Shown: positions 5,319-29,927 of the stretch, one piece after another
How the letters are laid out: every line of letters begins with the position of its first letter
Position numbering within the stretch: the stretch's first letter is position 1
Origin: a virus
Reading direction: 5' to 3' (one strand)
DNA length: 30,647 nt
Virus record (IMG/VR): IMGVR_UViG_3300027746_000069
Location: 1 to 30,647 of that record
The notes under the pieces: generated by a model
What the model saw: only the letters and a program-made list of their open reading frames with translations
Told to the model about the DNA's origin: nothing
The model's database searches: none
Program-made: the position numbers and the translations under genes

Positions 5319-6197
5319 ATGACAACAATAGCAAATTCAGCGGGAGTTTTTGCAAGACTTGGATATAACTTTGATGATCCAAATGAAACCATACAAGTTT
5401 TTTCAGACGAAACAAAAGCACAACTAAATGCAGTTCCTGCTTTACTTGATTCTTGGGCTGGAAAAGATTTAGCAACTAGTAATGTAAATGCTTATTACAA
5501 AAATCCTGTGGCTACAGATGTGCAAACTATTAGTAATTCTGCAAATTCAATTATTTCACTTGTTACTGCAGCCAATGGATTACAAGGATTAACGGGAACA
5601 ATTACTACTTTATTTGCTAATATTGCAAATACTAATTTGGCTACTGTTTGCCAATCTTATAAATTACATACTGATAGGCTTTCGGGAGTAAGAAATTTTG
5701 ATGATGATGTTGGTGCCAATACTTCAGCCATTTACACCTCGCCATATAAAGATCCAGCAATTGGTTATGGCAAATCAGCAATGTATATTGTTAATCAAAC
5801 AGATGGAATTGTCAACACCGCACCAATTTTAGGTAGTTTTACCAGTCTTTTTGTTGGTCCACAGATAAATGCAAACTCAAGTATAATTTCAACTTACTAT
5901 AATATAATTAATAATAGTATAACAATAACACAAGACACAAGTGGAGCTTACTCAAACACAGTCCACACCTCAAACCTTTCTTTATCGGTAGTTACAACAA
6001 TTGATAGCCAGCTGGCGAACACCACTATATTTTTGGCAAACAGAGAAAATCACGATAAAAATTATTATGCCAATCTAAAAACTGTGTCGGAAGATTATCA
6101 AGAGCTTCGTAAATTACAAAATTTGGGACAATCAGAAAGCACTTTGATTGAAGATTTTATTGGTACAGACAAACTACTTTCTAGGTTGAACGCATAA
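5319..6197 (+). CDS. Uncharacterised baseplate-region protein
   Basis: A 292-aa protein with a good Shine-Dalgarno (GGAG at 5308-5311) seven bases before the ATG. I do not recognise a family. The N-terminus (GVFARLGYNFDDPNETIQVF) and a central SPYKDPAIGYGKSAMYIVNQ stretch are the most structured parts. Much of the rest is Asn/Thr/Ser-rich. The final third (EDYQELRKLQNLGQSESTLI) looks helical. It lies between the spike and gp25, so a virion or baseplate assembly role is likely by position only. Its stop codon TAA is part of a CATAAATA octamer just before gp25. Confidence 0.7.
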   Translation: MTTIANSAGVFARLGYNFDDPNETIQVFSDETKAQLNAVPALLDSWAGKDLATSNVNAYYKNPVATDVQTISNSANSIISLVTAANGLQGLTGTITTLFANIANTNLATVCQSYKLHTDRLSGVRNFDDDVGANTSAIYTSPYKDPAIGYGKSAMYIVNQTDGIVNTAPILGSFTSLFVGPQINANSSIISTYYNIINNSITITQDTSGAYSNTVHTSNLSLSVVTTIDSQLANTTIFLANRENHDKNYYANLKTVSEDYQELRKLQNLGQSESTLIEDFIGTDKLLSRLNA

Positions 6198-6200
6198 ATA
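6193..6200 (+). promoter_or_regulatory. Late-promoter-like octamer CATAAATA before gp25
   Basis: CATAAATA differs from the T4 late promoter TATAAATA by one base and contains the TAA stop of the upstream gene. It lies only four bases before the gp25 ATG. With a T4-like geometry the transcript would begin about at the start codon, so it may be leaderless, serve downstream genes, or be chance in AT-rich DNA. Confidence 0.35.
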
Positions 6201-6204
6201 AGAT

Positions 6205-6609
6205 ATGGCAACCGTAACCACAAACATCGCTCGGGAATATAGTGATTTAGACTTAAACTTCACTATTCATCCAGTTAAAAAAGACATAAACCGCCATGTT
6301 GGTGATATGGCGGTCATCAATTCTATAAAGAATTTGGTGTTAACTAATCACTATGAGAGACCATTTCAACCAGACATTGGTAGCAATATTCGCCGACTTT
6401 TGTTTGAAAATATGGACACAATTACGGCTTCTTCCATAGAAAGAGAAATAGAACAGACAATATCAAACTACGAACCTAGAGCTAGAGTTTCAAGAATTAA
6501 TGCTATTGCAGATTTTGACAGAAATGGGTTTAAGGTGGAAATGGAATTCTTTGTTATCAATAGAACTGACCCAATCACAATTAATTTTTTCCTAGAACGG
6601 ATTAGATAG
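6205..6609 (+). CDS. 25: Baseplate wedge protein gp25
   Basis: A 134-aa protein, the same size as T4 gp25 (132 aa). It shows the GPW/gp25 family pattern: DLNFTIHPVKKDINRHVGDM, then AVINSIKNLVLTNHYERPFQ, DIGSNIRRLLFENM, and the conserved EPR motif in NYEPRARVSRI. The fold resembles lysozyme, but the protein is structural: in T4, gp25 with gp6 and gp53 forms the core that triggers sheath contraction. It is followed by gp6 two bases downstream, matching the conserved gp25-gp6 pairing of contractile tails. No Shine-Dalgarno is evident. Confidence 0.95.
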   Translation: MATVTTNIAREYSDLDLNFTIHPVKKDINRHVGDMAVINSIKNLVLTNHYERPFQPDIGSNIRRLLFENMDTITASSIEREIEQTISNYEPRARVSRINAIADFDRNGFKVEMEFFVINRTDPITINFFLERIR

Positions 6610-19987: not shown

Positions 19988-21832
19988 ATGGGATATATTG
20001 GAGCAGTAGGTCCTGCATACGATCCAACTAGAGCAACTGTACCTCAGTTTGATGCTGAGCGTTTTAGTGGTAACAATTCTGCCGTTGCATTTACACTTCT
20101 AAGACAAGTTGTAAGTCCAACTGATGTGGATGTTTTTGTTGAGAATGTTCGACAAGAACCAATTGTTGCTTACAGTATTGTAAACGGTAGCACATTAACC
20201 TTTACAGAAGCTCCACAGACCGGTACAAATAACATCTATGTTATCTACCGTGGCTCTGGTATGTCAAATTATGCTTTTGTACCGGATGGTTCAATCTCAT
20301 ATGCCAAGTTAGCAAACAATATTCGTCAGTTCAACGTAGATAATTTTACTGCAAACGGAACTGGTCAAACATTTACACTCTCTGAAACTCCTGCTACTGC
20401 AAATACTGTAATAGCAGCAATTGATGGTGTAGTTCAAACTGCACCAAGTAACTATAATATTTCAGGAAGCACAATCATTTTTACATCGGCACCAGCAGCA
20501 TCTGCCAATGTTACAGTAAGACATTTAGGTTTTAGAACAACATCAACAGTTACCGCATTATCAGCAGCTTCTGTAACGGCTACTGAGTTAGCCGATGGTG
20601 CTGTTACTAATGCAAAACTTGCTGGTTCTATTACATCTGATAAAATTTCATCTGTTAATGGTGCATCACTATTAGCAAATACTATTCCAGTTAATACAGT
20701 AAGTGGTAATGTTATTGTTGCAAATACTGTAAGTAACTCTGCGTTTACTACGGGTTCTATTGAGAATTATCTGCGTAACCAAACATTAGACTTCGGTATG
20801 CGGAACAGAATCATCAACGGCGCCATGCGAATTGACCAAAGAAATGCTGGTGCAGCTGTTACTCCAGGAAGTGGTTCAACTTATACATTAGATAGATGGG
20901 CTAGTAGTCAAAGTGCTTCATCAAAATTTTCTGTGCAACAAGATTCTTCCGCTAACACGGTTGCAGGTTTTACTAGTTCATTAAAAGTTACTTCTTTGTC
21001 TGCGTATTCTCCAACATCGGGTGAAGAATTTATTATGTATCAGCCAATAGAAGGCTTAAACATAAGTGATTTGGGTTGGGGAACAGCTTCAGCTAAACCG
21101 GTCACATTATCATTTTGGGTTCGTTCTTCATTAACTGGTACTTTTGGTGGGTCATTAAGAAATAGTGCAACAAATCGTTCATATCCTTTTTCCTATATCA
21201 TTTCTGTCGCAAACACATGGGAATACAAAACTGTAACCATCGCTGGCGATACATCAGGCACTTGGTTAACTACTAATGGCGTAGGAATCTATGTTAGTTT
21301 TGGACTTGGTGCTGGTTCTTCAAGAGTGGGTACTGCTGGTGCATGGGCTGGTGCTGATTATGCTTCTGCCACAGGCGCAACATCCGTAGTTGGTACAAAT
21401 GGTGCTACTTGGTATATTACTGGCGTCCAATTGGAAGAAGGCTCTGTTCCAACTTCTTTTGAATATCGCCAACACGGTACTGAATTTGACCTTTGCCGTA
21501 GATATTTTGAAAAAATAAACTTTACAAATGTTGGCGGTGCTAATCAATATGTTGGTGGTGGTGTGGGTATGGCATACGATACAAATGATGCTCGAATACA
21601 GCTTCAATATTACCCAAAAAGAGCATCTGCAACTGCAACTTTTTCAGGAACTATTAAGTTTGCAAATGCTGGTTCAAATAGTGGAAATTTAACAACTGCA
21701 TTATTTGACAATGCTGGAACAGATACCACATTGCTATATCGCAATGATTTATCTGGGTTAACTCGTGGTCAAGCGTATCAATTATCTGCTCAAGCAACAA
21801 ATACTTATGTTTCATTTAGTGCGGAGTTATAA
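19988..21832 (+). CDS. Tail-fibre adhesin with MRNRIING scaffold, type 1
   Basis: A 614-aa protein with AAGGATAA before its ATG. In order: an MGYIG N-terminus; two copies of a fibre module at about residues 24-90 and 118-181 (F-x-G-N...FTL...V-x-V-x-V-Q...F-T-x-AP); a Thr/Ala 'ADGAVTNAKLAGS' linker; GMRNRIINGAMRIDQRNAGA at about 270-290; then a jelly-roll-like domain (LSFWVRSSLTGTFGGSLRNS, WEYKTVTIAGDTSGTWL, GVQLEEGSVPTSFEYRQHGT). The last 107 residues after RRYFEK are unlike those of the two sister adhesins, until the shared end FSAEL. It is probably a trimeric receptor-binding fibre. The small gene at 21835 follows two bases later. Confidence 0.85.
   Translation: MGYIGAVGPAYDPTRATVPQFDAERFSGNNSAVAFTLLRQVVSPTDVDVFVENVRQEPIVAYSIVNGSTLTFTEAPQTGTNNIYVIYRGSGMSNYAFVPDGSISYAKLANNIRQFNVDNFTANGTGQTFTLSETPATANTVIAAIDGVVQTAPSNYNISGSTIIFTSAPAASANVTVRHLGFRTTSTVTALSAASVTATELADGAVTNAKLAGSITSDKISSVNGASLLANTIPVNTVSGNVIVANTVSNSAFTTGSIENYLRNQTLDFGMRNRIINGAMRIDQRNAGAAVTPGSGSTYTLDRWASSQSASSKFSVQQDSSANTVAGFTSSLKVTSLSAYSPTSGEEFIMYQPIEGLNISDLGWGTASAKPVTLSFWVRSSLTGTFGGSLRNSATNRSYPFSYIISVANTWEYKTVTIAGDTSGTWLTTNGVGIYVSFGLGAGSSRVGTAGAWAGADYASATGATSVVGTNGATWYITGVQLEEGSVPTSFEYRQHGTEFDLCRRYFEKINFTNVGGANQYVGGGVGMAYDTNDARIQLQYYPKRASATATFSGTIKFANAGSNSGNLTTALFDNAGTDTTLLYRNDLSGLTRGQAYQLSAQATNTYVSFSAEL
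21425..21475 (+). repeat. 51-bp exact repeat, copy 1 (end of adhesin scaffold)
   Basis: These 51 bases recur without mismatch at 28958-29008 in another adhesin gene. They encode VQLEEGSVPTSFEYRQH at the end of the shared scaffold, about 30 bases before the point where the tip sequences diverge. Synonymous identity over the stretch suggests recent recombination rather than only protein-level selection. Confidence 0.9.
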
Positions 21833-22636: not shown

Positions 22637-22809
22637 TGACATTAACTGAAAAAATTATGGATTTATATCCAGAATTAAAAATAGAAGATTTTTTATTTGG
22701 AACAATCACACTACAAAACGATTCAGATGGCAACGGAGCTTACATTGCTAAATGGGAACATCCAACGCTTACTAGACCAACACAAGAACAGCTTGATGCT
22801 GTATCATAA
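22636..22809 (+). CDS. XkdW-like small partner protein, copy 1
   Basis: A 57-aa protein. The ATG at 22636 overlaps the adhesin stop (TAATG) and is preferred over an upstream in-frame TTG-type start at 22600, which would lie deep in the adhesin gene; the sister gene at 30478 starts in exactly this way. The sequence TLTEKIMDLYPELKIEDFLF, LQNDSDGNGAYIAKWEH, then PTLTRPTQEQLDAV matches the XkdW pattern (YPEL...DF ... I..W ... PT..QL). XkdW belongs to the tail-fibre end of the B. subtilis PBSX prophage tail operon. A fibre-assembly partner is probable. Confidence 0.85.
   Translation: MTLTEKIMDLYPELKIEDFLFGTITLQNDSDGNGAYIAKWEHPTLTRPTQEQLDAVS
22713..22798 (+). repeat. Shared XkdW-like DNA patch, copy 1
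   Basis: These 86 bases align without gaps to 30561-30646. They encode LQNDSDGxGxYIAKWEHPTL and the following TRPTQ..LD. Several mismatches are present, mostly in the middle, while the outer parts are identical over runs of 14 or more bases. It is a likely site for homologous exchange between the two cassettes. Confidence 0.75.
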
Positions 22810-22815
22810 TAAATA
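22808..22815 (+). promoter_or_regulatory. Late-promoter-like octamer AATAAATA
   Basis: AATAAATA overlaps the stop of the XkdW-like gene and ends seven bases before the ATG at 22823. The stretch AATAAATAGACCAxTATGCC is shared with 29574-29593 ahead of another fibre gene. T4-like geometry would leave almost no leader. Confidence 0.4.
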
Positions 22816-22822
22816 GACCATT

Positions 22823-24088
22823 ATGCCATTAACAAAAGTATCGTTTTCCGTAATTCAAGTTGCTAACAATGTAACTTCTACGACTGTTGGTAACACAACA
22901 TCTATTCCGTCATTTACTTTTGACCAGAATGGCGTAATTACATCAGCATCAAATACAGCAATCTCTGGTGCTGGTATCACAGCAAACACGATTGCTAACT
23001 CAGCATTCCAGACAGGTTCTATTGAGAATTATAGTAGAGCTACTGGATTGCTTTCTGGTATGCGGAATAGAATAATCAATGGTGCGATGGTGATTGACCA
23101 GCGTAATGCTGGAGCTGCTGTTACATCAAATGGTGCTTTTCCTGTTGATAGATTTACTGTAAGCAACGGAACTGACGGAGCGTTTTCTGCTCAACAAGAT
23201 TCCTCTGTACCAGCGGGTTTTACTAAATCAACAAAAATAACCATAACTACCGCAGATACAAGTCTTGCCGCAACACAAAATCTTTCATTTCTTCAAAGAA
23301 TAGAAGGCTACAATATTGCTGATTTGAATTGGGGTAGTGCAAACGCTAAAACAGTTACGCTATCCTTTTGGGTTCGTTCTAGTCTAACTGGAACTTTTGG
23401 CGGTGCATTAAGAAATAACGATACTAATCGGTCTTATCCATATACATATTCCATTTCAGTTGCTGACACTTGGGAATACAAAACAGTAACTATAACTGGT
23501 GATACTAGTGGAACATGGGCTACTGACAATAACACTGGAATAAACTTAATTTTTGGTCTTGGTGCTGGTGCTGATAGAAGTGGAACTGCTGGTGCTTGGA
23601 ATTCAAATACTAATTCTTCTGCTACAGGAGCAGTTTCAGTTGTCGGTACTTTAAACGCTACATGGTACATCACAGGAGTTCAACTTGAGGTAGGCTCTAC
23701 AGCTACTAGCTTTGATTACAGACCTTATGGAACTGAATTACAGCTTTGCCAACGCTATTATTACAATATTTTTGGAACAGCATCCGATTTTCAAGCATTT
23801 GGTTGTGGTGTTTGGCTTTCATCAACAGTTGGAAAAGTTTTGATAGACCTTCCAGTGCCTTTGAGAGTAGTTCCAACATTAGAAGCTGCAAGTCTTAGAC
23901 TTTTTGATGCCGCAGCATCAACCACTAGGTCAGCAACTGGTTTTTCCATAGCTTACACAGTAACAGCAACAAATAAAGCTTTTATTGATGTTAGTGTTGG
24001 CAGTAGTTCAGCTTCTGCTGGAGATGCTTGTTTGGCTGTATTAAATACTTCAACCAGTGCAAGAGTTGGTTTTAGTGCGGAGTTATAA
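22823..24088 (+). CDS. Tail-fibre adhesin with MRNRIING scaffold, type 2
   Basis: A 421-aa protein. The N-terminal 75 residues are a short shaft (PLTKVSFSVIQVANNVTSTT, then ITANTIANSAFQTGSIENY). GMRNRIINGAMVIDQRNAGA follows at about residue 80, then the same jelly-roll-like scaffold as the adhesin at 19988 (LSFWVRSSLTGTFGGALRNN, WEYKTVTITGDTSGTWA, TWYITGVQLEVGSTATSFDY). After QRYY the last 108 residues are a tip unrelated in sequence to the other two, except for its final GFSAEL. It lacks the long N-terminal modules of the 19988 protein, so the two may attach at different points. It is followed one base later by a small partner gene. Confidence 0.85.
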   Translation: MPLTKVSFSVIQVANNVTSTTVGNTTSIPSFTFDQNGVITSASNTAISGAGITANTIANSAFQTGSIENYSRATGLLSGMRNRIINGAMVIDQRNAGAAVTSNGAFPVDRFTVSNGTDGAFSAQQDSSVPAGFTKSTKITITTADTSLAATQNLSFLQRIEGYNIADLNWGSANAKTVTLSFWVRSSLTGTFGGALRNNDTNRSYPYTYSISVADTWEYKTVTITGDTSGTWATDNNTGINLIFGLGAGADRSGTAGAWNSNTNSSATGAVSVVGTLNATWYITGVQLEVGSTATSFDYRPYGTELQLCQRYYYNIFGTASDFQAFGCGVWLSSTVGKVLIDLPVPLRVVPTLEAASLRLFDAAASTTRSATGFSIAYTVTATNKAFIDVSVGSSSASAGDACLAVLNTSTSARVGFSAEL

Positions 24089-24089
24089 A

Positions 24090-24302
24090 ATGTATCAATT
24101 ACAAAAAAATTTGATGTTAAACAAAGTTTGTGCCGTTAATAAAACTACGGATAATGGAATGATATCTATTCCCATCTATGTTGGCAACACCGACTACGCT
24201 AACTTCAAAAAAGAAGTCTTAGCTGGTGCAGAACTGCAAGATGCCGATGGGAATGTGATGACCACAGAAGAAGCTAATGCGTTCATTGGAACACTTTCAT
24301 AA
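24090..24302 (+). CDS. Small fibre-partner protein with AELQDADG motif, copy 1
   Basis: A 70-aa protein. The ATG at 24090, one base after the adhesin stop, is chosen over an in-frame alternative at 24057 because the 52-aa gene at 21835 and the partner at 29362 start at the same place relative to their adhesins. The N-terminal half (YQLQKNLMLNKVCAVNKTTD) is specific to this gene. The C-terminal half (AGAELQDADGNVMTTEEANA, then FIGTL) is almost identical to the end of the gene at 29362. Likely a chaperone or cap for the MRNRIING adhesin upstream. Confidence 0.8.
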   Translation: MYQLQKNLMLNKVCAVNKTTDNGMISIPIYVGNTDYANFKKEVLAGAELQDADGNVMTTEEANAFIGTLS

Positions 24303-24305
24303 TTA
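24221..24305 (+). repeat. Shared 85-bp patch at end of partner gene, copy 1
   Basis: These bases align without gaps to 29484-29568, with the first 42 identical and about seven differences in all by my count. The patch covers the AELQDADGNVMT...AFIGTL coding end and the stop codon. The N-terminal halves of the two genes differ, so it looks like a conserved module joined to variable partners. Confidence 0.85.
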
Positions 24306-24308
24306 GCA

Positions 24309-24316
24309 CATAAATA
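24309..24316 (+). promoter_or_regulatory. Late-promoter-like octamer CATAAATA
   Basis: CATAAATA lies just after the partner-gene stop and 28 bases before the presumed ATC start at 24345. A transcript starting some six bases downstream would carry the AAAGGTGA ribosome-binding site. It supports a gene start at 24345 rather than at 24429. Confidence 0.5.
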
Positions 24317-24330
24317 GAACATAACAGATT

Positions 24331-24338
24331 AAAGGTGA
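24331..24338 (+). promoter_or_regulatory. Shine-Dalgarno pointing to an ATC start
   Basis: AAAGGTGA ends six bases before ATC at 24345. No ATG, GTG or TTG lies in frame between it and 24429. Its position is ideal for initiation at 24345 and useless for 24429. Confidence 0.6.
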
Positions 24339-24344
24339 ACTAAA

Positions 24345-24770
24345 ATCGGATATCTTGGCAACTCTCCGCAAAGCGGCGCAATCAGGTCAGAATTCTTTAC
24401 TGGCAATAACTCTACGACCACATACAACTTGGCGTATGAGTATGGCAACGAAGCTTCGGTTCTCGTATTCATTGATGGCGTAAAACAAAAGACCGATTCA
24501 TATGCAGTTATAAACGGTCAAATTATTTTCACAACTGCTCCACCTAATTCTGGTACAAACAACATTGAAGTTGTTTATCTTGGTGGATCAGTTGTTACAA
24601 CACCATATTTGTCCGCAGATGAATTTGGTATCATAAGAATTAATGCTGCTGAGCTAACACAAAATGCAACCATTACCACCGGATATAACGCTAGCTCAGC
24701 CGGGCCATTAAAAGTGGCGAATAATATAACCGTAAGTGTGGCTAATAATTCCACATGGACAATATTTTAA
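24345..24770 (+). CDS. Short fibre protein, apparently starting at ATC
   Basis: The frame is open from 24339 (stop TGA at 24336). From ATC at 24345 it reads (I/M)GYLGNSPQSGAIRSEFFTGN, parallel to MGYIGAVGP...ERFSGNNS of the fibre gene at 19988. This indicates that the true N-terminus is at 24345 and not at the TTG of 24429, which would cut into the conserved fibre module (FFTGNNSTTTYNL ... VFIDGVKQ ... IIFTTAPPN ... IEVVYLG). The protein would be 141 aa. Its C-terminus (SSAGPLKVANNITVSVANNS, then TWTIF) is an 'AGP...STW.I' end module also present in the gene at 29589. An ATG-to-ATC change, by mutation, sequencing error or real non-canonical initiation, is the simplest explanation. Confidence 0.72.
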   Translation: MGYLGNSPQSGAIRSEFFTGNNSTTTYNLAYEYGNEASVLVFIDGVKQKTDSYAVINGQIIFTTAPPNSGTNNIEVVYLGGSVVTTPYLSADEFGIIRINAAELTQNATITTGYNASSAGPLKVANNITVSVANNSTWTIF

Positions 24771-24786
24771 CTAAAGAGATAAATTT

Positions 24787-25578
24787 ATGGCCGGACTGAT
24801 AAAAGCAGACACAATATATGGCGAAAGTTCGCTACGACTAAACGTTGGTGAAGTAACTCTCATCAATGTAAATGCTACAGCGTTTAATGTCGCACAACCA
24901 CTCAATGTTCAAACCAATGCAACGATAACAGGTAACCTAACTGTTCTTACAGATGCTACTTTCTCTGGCAATGTAAGGATTGAAGGTACTCAGTTCATTA
25001 CCAACACCGAGATTCTTGTTGTTGAAGATAAGAACATTGAAATTGCCAATGTGGCAAACCCAACTACGACAACTGCAAACGGTGCAGGTATCACAATTCG
25101 CACAGGTCTTACAGCTTCAAGTAATAGAGATCCAACAATTCAATGGGAACTTCCAAACCAATCATTTCTAATCAATCAAGGTATTGACATTCAGCAAGTA
25201 ACAGAGCGTGCCAATGTGTCCGCAAATACCTTAAATGGTGTTTCAAACTTTGATGTGCTAGAAGGTGCTGTTAAGTTCTATACAAACAACCCAACGGGTA
25301 ACTGGACAATTAATGTCCGTGGTAGTTCTTCTAATAGTTTTGATAGCATGACCGCAACAGGTGATTCTGTTACCGTGGCTTATATGGCAAACAATGGTGG
25401 TACTGCATACTATCAGACAGGATTACAGATTGACGGATTTACTCGCACAGTAAAATGGCAAGGCGGTTCTGCACCATCTTCAGGTAATGCAAGTAGTATT
25501 GATATCTACTCTATTACATTATTGAAAACTGCTGCCAATACATGGACAGTATTAGCTTCACAAACACAATACGCATAA
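24787..25578 (+). CDS. Short tail-fibre protein
   Basis: A 263-aa protein. The N-terminus (AGLIKADTIYGESSLRLNVG) is a fibre-attachment type start, followed by a beta-rich shaft (TITGNLTVLTDATFSGNVRI). The middle (FITNTEILVVEDKNIEIANV, then GAGITIRTG) is a familiar shaft element in fibres of marine T4-like phages. The C-terminal 90 residues (FYTNNPTGNWTINVRGSSSN through TANTWTVLASQTQYA) form a compact beta domain that often ends such fibres. There is no small partner gene after it. It is probably a minor fibre or the base of an adhesin; receptor binding is not evident. Confidence 0.8.
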   Translation: MAGLIKADTIYGESSLRLNVGEVTLINVNATAFNVAQPLNVQTNATITGNLTVLTDATFSGNVRIEGTQFITNTEILVVEDKNIEIANVANPTTTTANGAGITIRTGLTASSNRDPTIQWELPNQSFLINQGIDIQQVTERANVSANTLNGVSNFDVLEGAVKFYTNNPTGNWTINVRGSSSNSFDSMTATGDSVTVAYMANNGGTAYYQTGLQIDGFTRTVKWQGGSAPSSGNASSIDIYSITLLKTAANTWTVLASQTQYA

Positions 25579-29573: not shown

Positions 29574-29581
29574 AATAAATA
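29574..29581 (+). promoter_or_regulatory. Late-promoter-like octamer AATAAATA
   Basis: AATAAATA ends seven bases before the ATG at 29589, in the same sequence setting as 22808-22815. The leader would be close to zero with T4-like geometry, so its use for this gene is uncertain. Confidence 0.4.
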
Positions 29582-29588
29582 GACCAAT

Positions 29589-29927
29589 ATGCCAATCTCT
29601 CGCATCAATAATAATTCTATTGCCAATAATACCATTGTTGCATCCGACTTAGCCGCTGGTTCTGTTACTGGTGATAAACTCGGTTTGACCGCAATCAATG
29701 CTAATAATGTGGTTGATGCTTCAATTACCGCTGCTAAATTAGCTGCAGGTGCAGGTGGTCAGTTTCTTGATAATCAAGCTGTTCATGTAGTGTATTTTAA
29801 TGGCCAAAATCTTACATCAAATATTTCTGTGTCAGCAAATCAAAATGCGTTTACAGCGGGACCATTTACTATTGATGCTCCATATCAAGTAACATTGAAT
29901 GCTGGTTCTACTTGGGTAATTCTATAA
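29589..29927 (+). CDS. Short fibre protein with AGP...STW end module
   Basis: A 112-aa protein. The N-terminal half is a fibre shaft with repeats around 'NNTIVASDLAAGSVTGDKLG' and 'DASITAAKLAAGAGG'. The C-terminal 45 residues (NISVSANQNAFTAGPFTIDA, then PYQVTLNAGSTWVIL) match the end module of the gene at 24345. The module is common at the ends of small phage surface proteins. There is no separate receptor domain, so it may be a minor fibre or the base on which the following C1q-like adhesin sits. The stop overlaps the next start (TAATGG). Confidence 0.78.
   Translation: MPISRINNNSIANNTIVASDLAAGSVTGDKLGLTAINANNVVDASITAAKLAAGAGGQFLDNQAVHVVYFNGQNLTSNISVSANQNAFTAGPFTIDAPYQVTLNAGSTWVIL

Follow-up and report, generated by a model that had tools for sequence, protein, structure and literature searches.

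A probable, weak AUC start codon in a T4-like phage fibre gene as the likely scar of a SegE-like homing endonuclease

Comparison of related alleles makes it likely that the ATC codon at position 24345 of the stretch of DNA analysed here (a virus record of 30,647 bases from an environmental T4-like virus of bacteria, referred to as the window) serves a fibre gene as its real start, although probably a weak one, and is at the same time the scar of an endonuclease gene. The fibre start of relatives is occupied precisely by a gene for a SegE-like GIY-YIG homing endonuclease, whose 3' end (...LIKVN*-A-ATT) makes up the leader AAGGTGAACTAAAAT(T/C). The window appears to have lost the endonuclease and to have kept about 25 nt, the leader and first codon of the fibre gene corresponding to the 3' end of the cassette. 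The features of the locus are collected in Table 1.

Table 1. Features of the fibre locus and comparison gene in the window
Feature	Position	Strand	Remarks
Related fibre gene, ATG start (MGYIG)	19988..21832	+	Comparison gene in the window
Small upstream gene	24090..24302	+	3' part plus late promoter (24185-24322) 99.3% identical to L001
Late promoter, T4-type, CATAAATA	24309..24316	+	Predicted transcript start at about 24321-24322
Putative scar segment, in place of the L001 endonuclease gene and TTG start	24323..24347	+	Identity to L001 breaks off at 24322 and returns at 24348 (codon 2)
Cassette tail, AAGGTGAAC-TAA-A-ATC	24332..24347	+	Equals the KVN*-A-AT(T/C) 3' end of relatives' GIY-YIG genes
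Shine-Dalgarno sequence (SD), AAGGTGA, 6 nt ahead of ATC	24332..24338	+	Not sequestered in the predicted RNA fold
In-frame stop, TGA	24336..24338	+	Rules out an earlier start in the fibre frame
ATC, deduced start codon of the fibre gene	24345..24347	+
Fibre-type gene, 141 codons including stop	24345..24770	+	N-terminal match below cut-off to DUF4183 / T7 tail-fibre N-terminal models; PHROG tail fibre
TTG, codon 29, earliest canonical in-frame start	24429..24431	+	Rejected as start; position unconserved

The fibre gene and its first codon

The region from 24330 to 24360 of the window reads TAAAGGTGAACTAAAATCGGATATCTTGGC. Ahead of the ATC the fibre frame reads TGA-ACT-AAA, with a stop 9 nt upstream, and it is intact from the ATC to 24770, the predicted N-terminus being (M)GYLGNSPQSGAIR. 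The initial annotation had taken this ATC as the first codon, by homology to the MGYIG fibre N-terminus, and had found no in-frame ATG, GTG or TTG before the TTG at codon 29; our analysis agrees on both points, the ATC being aligned with the M of the MGYIG or M[SA]Y[IL]G family and preceded by AAAGGTGA as SD. The protein shows weak to moderate matches to phage tail-fibre families (PHROG 5342 tail fiber, E 1.9e-9; PHROG 18673, E 2.8e-6; Pfam Phage_T7_tail, 0.006, below the cut-off), and the gene combines such a family match with a location in a fibre/baseplate cluster, as T4-like tail-fibre genes do. The baseplate wedge gene of the window matches PHROG 219 (E 8.8e-160), and its product is about 40% identical to those of T4-like phages of Methylophilales and Pelagibacter, which are the closest, those of Synechococcus phages being somewhat less close. 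A near-DNA search of phage records rendered no relatives, and a protein search rendered distant fibres only, less than 40% identical.

In 56 distinct fibre alleles of the form [X][SAG]Y[IL]G the first codon is ATG in 29, TTG in 12, ATT in 8, GTG in 4 and ATC in 3. A single base at 24347 would restore ATG, and consensus errors occur in metagenome contigs; the initial annotation had accordingly considered a sequence error from ATG and had advised a comparison with close relatives. In that comparison, carried out on IMG/VR alleles, ATC was also found at the aligned codon in two distinct alleles (L003/L004 and L026) and ATT in eight, all from other metagenomes, whereas ATG was never found behind this tail. 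Since independent contigs carry ATC or ATT, a base-calling or assembly error is refuted as the origin of the codon, and we assign it a negligible probability.

A scan in which the leader was fixed and the start codon left open (AAGGTNAAYTAAA-NNN-[SAG]Y[IL]G) matched 13 contigs, all of them with ATT or ATC and none with ATG, GTG or TTG (0/13). When 257 Gb of cellular genomes were scanned with this pattern, only chance matches resulted; a single one fell in an open frame, and no fibre was hit. The leader AAGGTGAACTAAA is common to the ATT/ATC alleles except L210-L212, which have an unrelated leader, CTGGAGAATAAAA, and yet ATT next to it. A promoter-adjacent scan with the start codon free rendered three recognisable fibres, all with ATG, and is too unspecific to add much. 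The possibility that AAGGTGAACTAAA is a special element by itself was discarded, as the same ribosome-binding site precedes ATG in 56 viral-contig stretches, mostly the ATG of ordinary phage genes.

Endonuclease cassettes in relatives and their probable residue in the window

In L005/L006, L008, L045, L062, L067 and L100 the leader consists of the last 9 coding bases and the stop of an upstream ORF, which ends in ...KVN* (AAG GTG AAC TAA) and is followed by A and then by ATT; in the occupied loci the upstream ORF ends 4-5 nt ahead of the fibre start. These ORFs match the PHROG 314 homing endonuclease (E 5.5e-26 and 2.1e-25) and, below the Pfam curated cut-off, SegE_GIY-YIG (E 6e-5 to 5e-3). 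They share the motif HLYKITN...EYYIGK and similarity to the GIY-YIG catalytic domain, and a NUMOD-type DNA-binding C-terminus was found, with NUMOD3 above the cut-off in L067 (5.8e-8) and L210 (6.7e-8) and weak or absent in the shorter endonucleases of occupied relatives. Presence or absence at one site is polymorphic in the pairs L271/L100, window/L001 and L279/L120. By these similarities the upstream ORFs are SegE-like GIY-YIG homing endonucleases, with putative cleavage and homing activities. The endonuclease starts with ATG, or with TTG in L005, a short distance after the late promoter, at the place of the fibre ATG in the empty alleles, so that in occupied alleles the native ATG goes to the endonuclease and the fibre starts at ATT, TTG or GTG with a new SD.

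Matched alleles delimit the cassette. The empty allele L271 and the occupied allele L100 are 93.5% identical over about 1.47 kb, through ATGG; past this point they differ, L100 having the endonuclease and another version of the four initial codons of the fibre, and from fibre codon 5 they are 96% identical. Therefore the element brings its own version of fibre codons 1-4, ATT included. The scar alleles L120 and L273, with ATT, and the empty, promoter-adjacent allele L279, with ATG, are 98% identical upstream and about 91% identical in the fibre. In the scars of L020 and L113 the mini-ORF NTMS|IHLIKVN* is kept, the N-terminus of the endonuclease being joined to its C-terminus.

For the window, the matched allele is L001. 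The fibre coding sequence of L001/L002 is 97.9% identical to that of the window, and the 138 nt up to 24322, comprising the end of the upstream gene and the late promoter, are 99.3% identical in L001. Between these matches L001 has an endonuclease of 214 codons with a different tail (LIRI*, then TTG), and the window has 25 nt only, AACAGATTAAAGGTGAACTAAAATC. No endonuclease ORF is found in the window between 24302 and 24345, where the 3' tail at 24332-24347 alone remains; among the loci gathered there is no occupied allele with ATC, and the exact endonuclease behind the ATC scar was not seen. A faulty assembly of a single contig does not account for the scar, because L026 and L003/L004 carry the same or a near-identical scar in other contexts. 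Identity between L026 and the window (24310-24464) begins exactly at the late promoter, the gene upstream being different; in this comparison promoter, leader and fibre are exchanged together as a single module, and the leader could have been moved by recombination.

Probable initiation at AUU or AUC

Initiation at AUU or AUC, probably weak, is the best reading of these alleles because their codons 2-28 are under purifying selection. Between L020 and L067 this stretch has a pS of 0.90 and a pN of 0.14, synonymous sites being near saturation between ATT/ATC alleles. The earliest canonical in-frame codon varies among them (codon 9, 29, 43, 55, 88 or 113), and since its position is not conserved, the conserved N-terminus is out of reach of any other canonical start; as in genes of the infC/pcnB type, the SD is followed by a conserved ORF that has AUU or AUC as its sole possible start codon. 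Over the whole fibre gene, pS and pN are 0.22 and 0.087 between the window and L003 (Fisher p 0.001), and 0.185 and 0.060 between L005 and L008. In codons 2-28 the window and L003 differ by 0.5 synonymous and 2.5 nonsynonymous changes, so that the selection signal in the window lineage rests on few differences. Where their use has been measured, AUC and AUU initiate poorly, and low expression of the window fibre is plausible.

The context of the start codon differs between the two kinds of allele. An SD was recognised, with 4 or more matching nt, in 27/27 non-ATG alleles, and 0/27 are promoter-adjacent. Of the 29 ATG alleles, 15 lack an SD and have the end of the late promoter 4-7 nt ahead of the start codon, exactly 5 nt in 11 of them; promoter-adjacent starts are ATG in 15/15 cases (Fisher p 6e-6). 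T4 late-promoter geometry, from which the +1 position in the window was also deduced, predicts leaderless mRNAs for these promoter-adjacent alleles. In the window itself, the late-promoter motif ATAAATA is found 4-7 nt before the ATG of other genes, without an SD, at 6193-6205, 22808-22823 and 29574-29589, and the late mRNAs of these three genes are also predicted to be leaderless. The occurrence of ATG at all promoter-adjacent starts and of an SD with all non-ATG starts fits the rules described for mycobacteria, in which RTG is required for leaderless starts and, after a consensus SD, ATT is over-represented among start codons (PMC4633059). In E. coli, infC and pcnB naturally start with AUU (PMC9410913). 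An RNA structure hiding or marking the start was also considered and rejected: the predicted fold around it was not better than those of shuffled sequences, and no structure is predicted for the leader.

In related phages the SegE-like gene takes over the late promoter and ATG of the fibre gene, and the 3' end of the endonuclease (AAG GTG AAC TAA A AT(T/C)) supplies the displaced gene with an SD and a near-cognate start. The following course of events can be proposed. In the occupied allele, the late transcript would begin at or next to the endonuclease AUG, and the SD inside the last codons of the endonuclease, whose stop lies 1 base before the AUU, would recruit or retain ribosomes for the fibre. 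The endonuclease ORF would have been deleted in an ancestor of the window allele, in which 28 nt separate the late promoter from the AUC and the SD would drive initiation there; coupling being impossible in the window scar, initiation would depend on the SD, with AUC tolerated at low efficiency. The fMet-tRNA would thus initiate at AUC (at AUU in the sister alleles), a strong SD in an unstructured, A/U-rich leader would compensate, and fibre output would be low but sufficient. AT(T/C) is a single substitution away from ATG, and its persistence suggests that the phage tolerates, or profits from, a low output; alternatively, ATG would recreate the endonuclease target. The cassette of L005 lies behind a TTG of the L009 kind, which shows that not every altered start gives protection.

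Other readings of the gene have to be weighed against initiation at AUC. The gene could be silenced or decaying, as the initial annotation had allowed, if insertion and loss had destroyed the start and left an ORF that is untranslated or residually translated; AUC is among the weakest start codons, and this phage group has several tandem fibre-type genes, so that one of them could be dispensable. However, the ATT/ATC alleles keep intact frames under purifying selection, the first 28 codons included, and the SD is kept in every one of them, so that silencing is not favoured and we regard it as unlikely. The TTG at codon 29 has in its favour that it is the earliest canonical in-frame start, from which a protein with a shorter N-terminus would be made, but codons 2-28 are conserved as protein and the first canonical codon is number 88 in L005, 55 in L020, 43 in L045 and 113 in L120, which makes this start highly improbable.

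It might also be that the frame is entered from another one, by +1 frameshifting or by coupled reinitiation from an upstream ORF or mini-ORF ending in KVN*-TAA. The endonuclease stop, 1 base before ATT in occupied alleles, is ideally placed for coupling, an ATG mini-ORF (MSIHLIKVN*) is kept in L020, and the SD just before AAC TAA A is reminiscent of the RF2 site. In the window, L026 and L003, however, no ATG is found in the KVN frame past the predicted start of the transcript, where it reads only GTG AAC TAA, and slippage from AAC to ACU would be poor. Coupling would modify initiation at AUU or AUC and not replace it, because that initiation is still required. Entry from another frame is hence considered very unlikely as an explanation by itself, and initiation at AUC behind the SD is kept as the preferred reading.

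Known systems and wider occurrence

The closest parallel is found in the free-standing GIY-YIG endonucleases of T4 (SegA-SegG, especially SegE), which share with the cassette a GIY-YIG domain with a NUMOD-type C-terminus, insertion next to or on phage genes, and the use of host promoters. According to a review on T4, seg and mob genes displaced promoters, contain replacements for them in their own coding sequence and are thereby protected from deletion; such embedded promoters for the displaced gene favour retention of seg genes (PMC2988022). Here, in contrast, the embedded element would be translational (stop, SD and non-AUG start), the insertion is on the fibre start codon, and the window retains only the translational element. 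By this analogy, the scar can be regarded as the translational counterpart of the seg/mob promoter substitution, the cassette carrying a substitute start, and it would show that only the substitute-start part of the cassette needed keeping. The same review describes genes split by mob insertion, such as Aeh1 nrdA by MobE and T4 gene 60/39 by MobA, in which an endonuclease also lies within a coding region and the downstream part needs a new start or continuation (PMC2988022); those are HNH endonucleases and split proteins, whereas here the first codons are replaced, the protein is whole and the new start is AUU or AUC.

Natural near- or non-cognate starts are described for E. coli infC and pcnB (AUU) and Streptomyces sigR (GTC), with regulation linked to IF3 reported for infC and sigR and a translationally limited expression for pcnB (PMC9410913; PMC5472188). 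These are cellular genes, while here the gene is a phage structural one and the codon was brought by a mobile element. The empty fibre alleles, always with ATG, resemble the leaderless mRNAs of mycobacteria with their RTG rule (PMC4633059), although the transcript starts are predicted here and the window allele is leadered. No paper on a homing endonuclease supplying an AUU or AUC start to a phage gene was found in the open-access literature, which is weak evidence of absence. Gene callers limited to ATG, GTG and TTG will truncate or miss such fibre genes. The naturally matched alleles (leaderless ATG; SD and AUU with the endonuclease; SD and AUU or AUC in the scar) offer material other than E. 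coli infC and pcnB for tests of initiation at near-cognate codons, and they show that a selfish gene can occupy a start codon without killing the host gene and that its regulatory end can persist after the gene is lost.

As for other genes, the distinct ORFs of 100 aa or longer that end in KVN* upstream of a gene were of the GIY-YIG type in 6/6 cases before ATT/ATC genes and in 0/12 before ATG genes, the calls being judged from the sequences, with profile matches for 5/6; five of the six belong to one SegE-like family, and these homologous cassettes are not independent observations. The sixth, in L076 (8870-10217), with L040, L071, L073 and L135, is a PF01541 GIY-YIG ORF of unrelated soil phages that ends in GKVN*-A-ATT. 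The gene after it in L076, with 247 codons, is antitermination-Q-like and has a homologue annotated as exonuclease in phage Tunturi_5; it starts with ATT, and the Tunturi_5 homologue, an empty allele, has ATG at the aligned position. It is tempting to propose, tentatively and with a little less than even confidence, that GIY-YIG endonucleases of unrelated phages share a portable 3' module of stop, SD and AUU or AUC that gives the displaced gene a non-AUG start and outlives the endonuclease as a scar. If so, the module could limit the dose of the displaced gene, or it could alter the cutting site and render the occupied or scarred allele resistant to cleavage. Targets seen for the module include several fibre types, the antitermination-like gene of L076 and possibly gp46 in L105.

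In the last case (L105:2672-2687), a gp46-like recombination endonuclease gene has ATC (IIHFENIKFKNFLSTG) as its first codon, behind the 13-nt leader AAGGTGAACTAAA, where Syn33 has ATG. The small gene upstream also ends in KVN*, but this is a single contig with no endonuclease, and the ATC start may be a coincidence.

Some further arrangements were observed in relatives of the cassette. In L005 (3300-4001) the cassette lies behind a leader and TTG (cataggaacacattTTG) that resemble the fibre start of L009; a stacked invasion is possible in this locus, and the L009-type TTG leader may itself be an older scar. In L216, L219, L220 and L221, related SegE-like endonucleases are located between the stop of the fibre module (TTTTAATG overlap) and the next gene (MAGKII..., the equivalent of that at 24787 in the window), which restarts with ATG or TTG at or just behind the endonuclease stop; this is a second insertion site of the SegE-like family. 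In L222 and L224, a diverged relative of the cassette ends in a TAATG stop-start overlap that gives MAY[IL]G fibres their ATG back, which solves the problem of the displaced start in another way.
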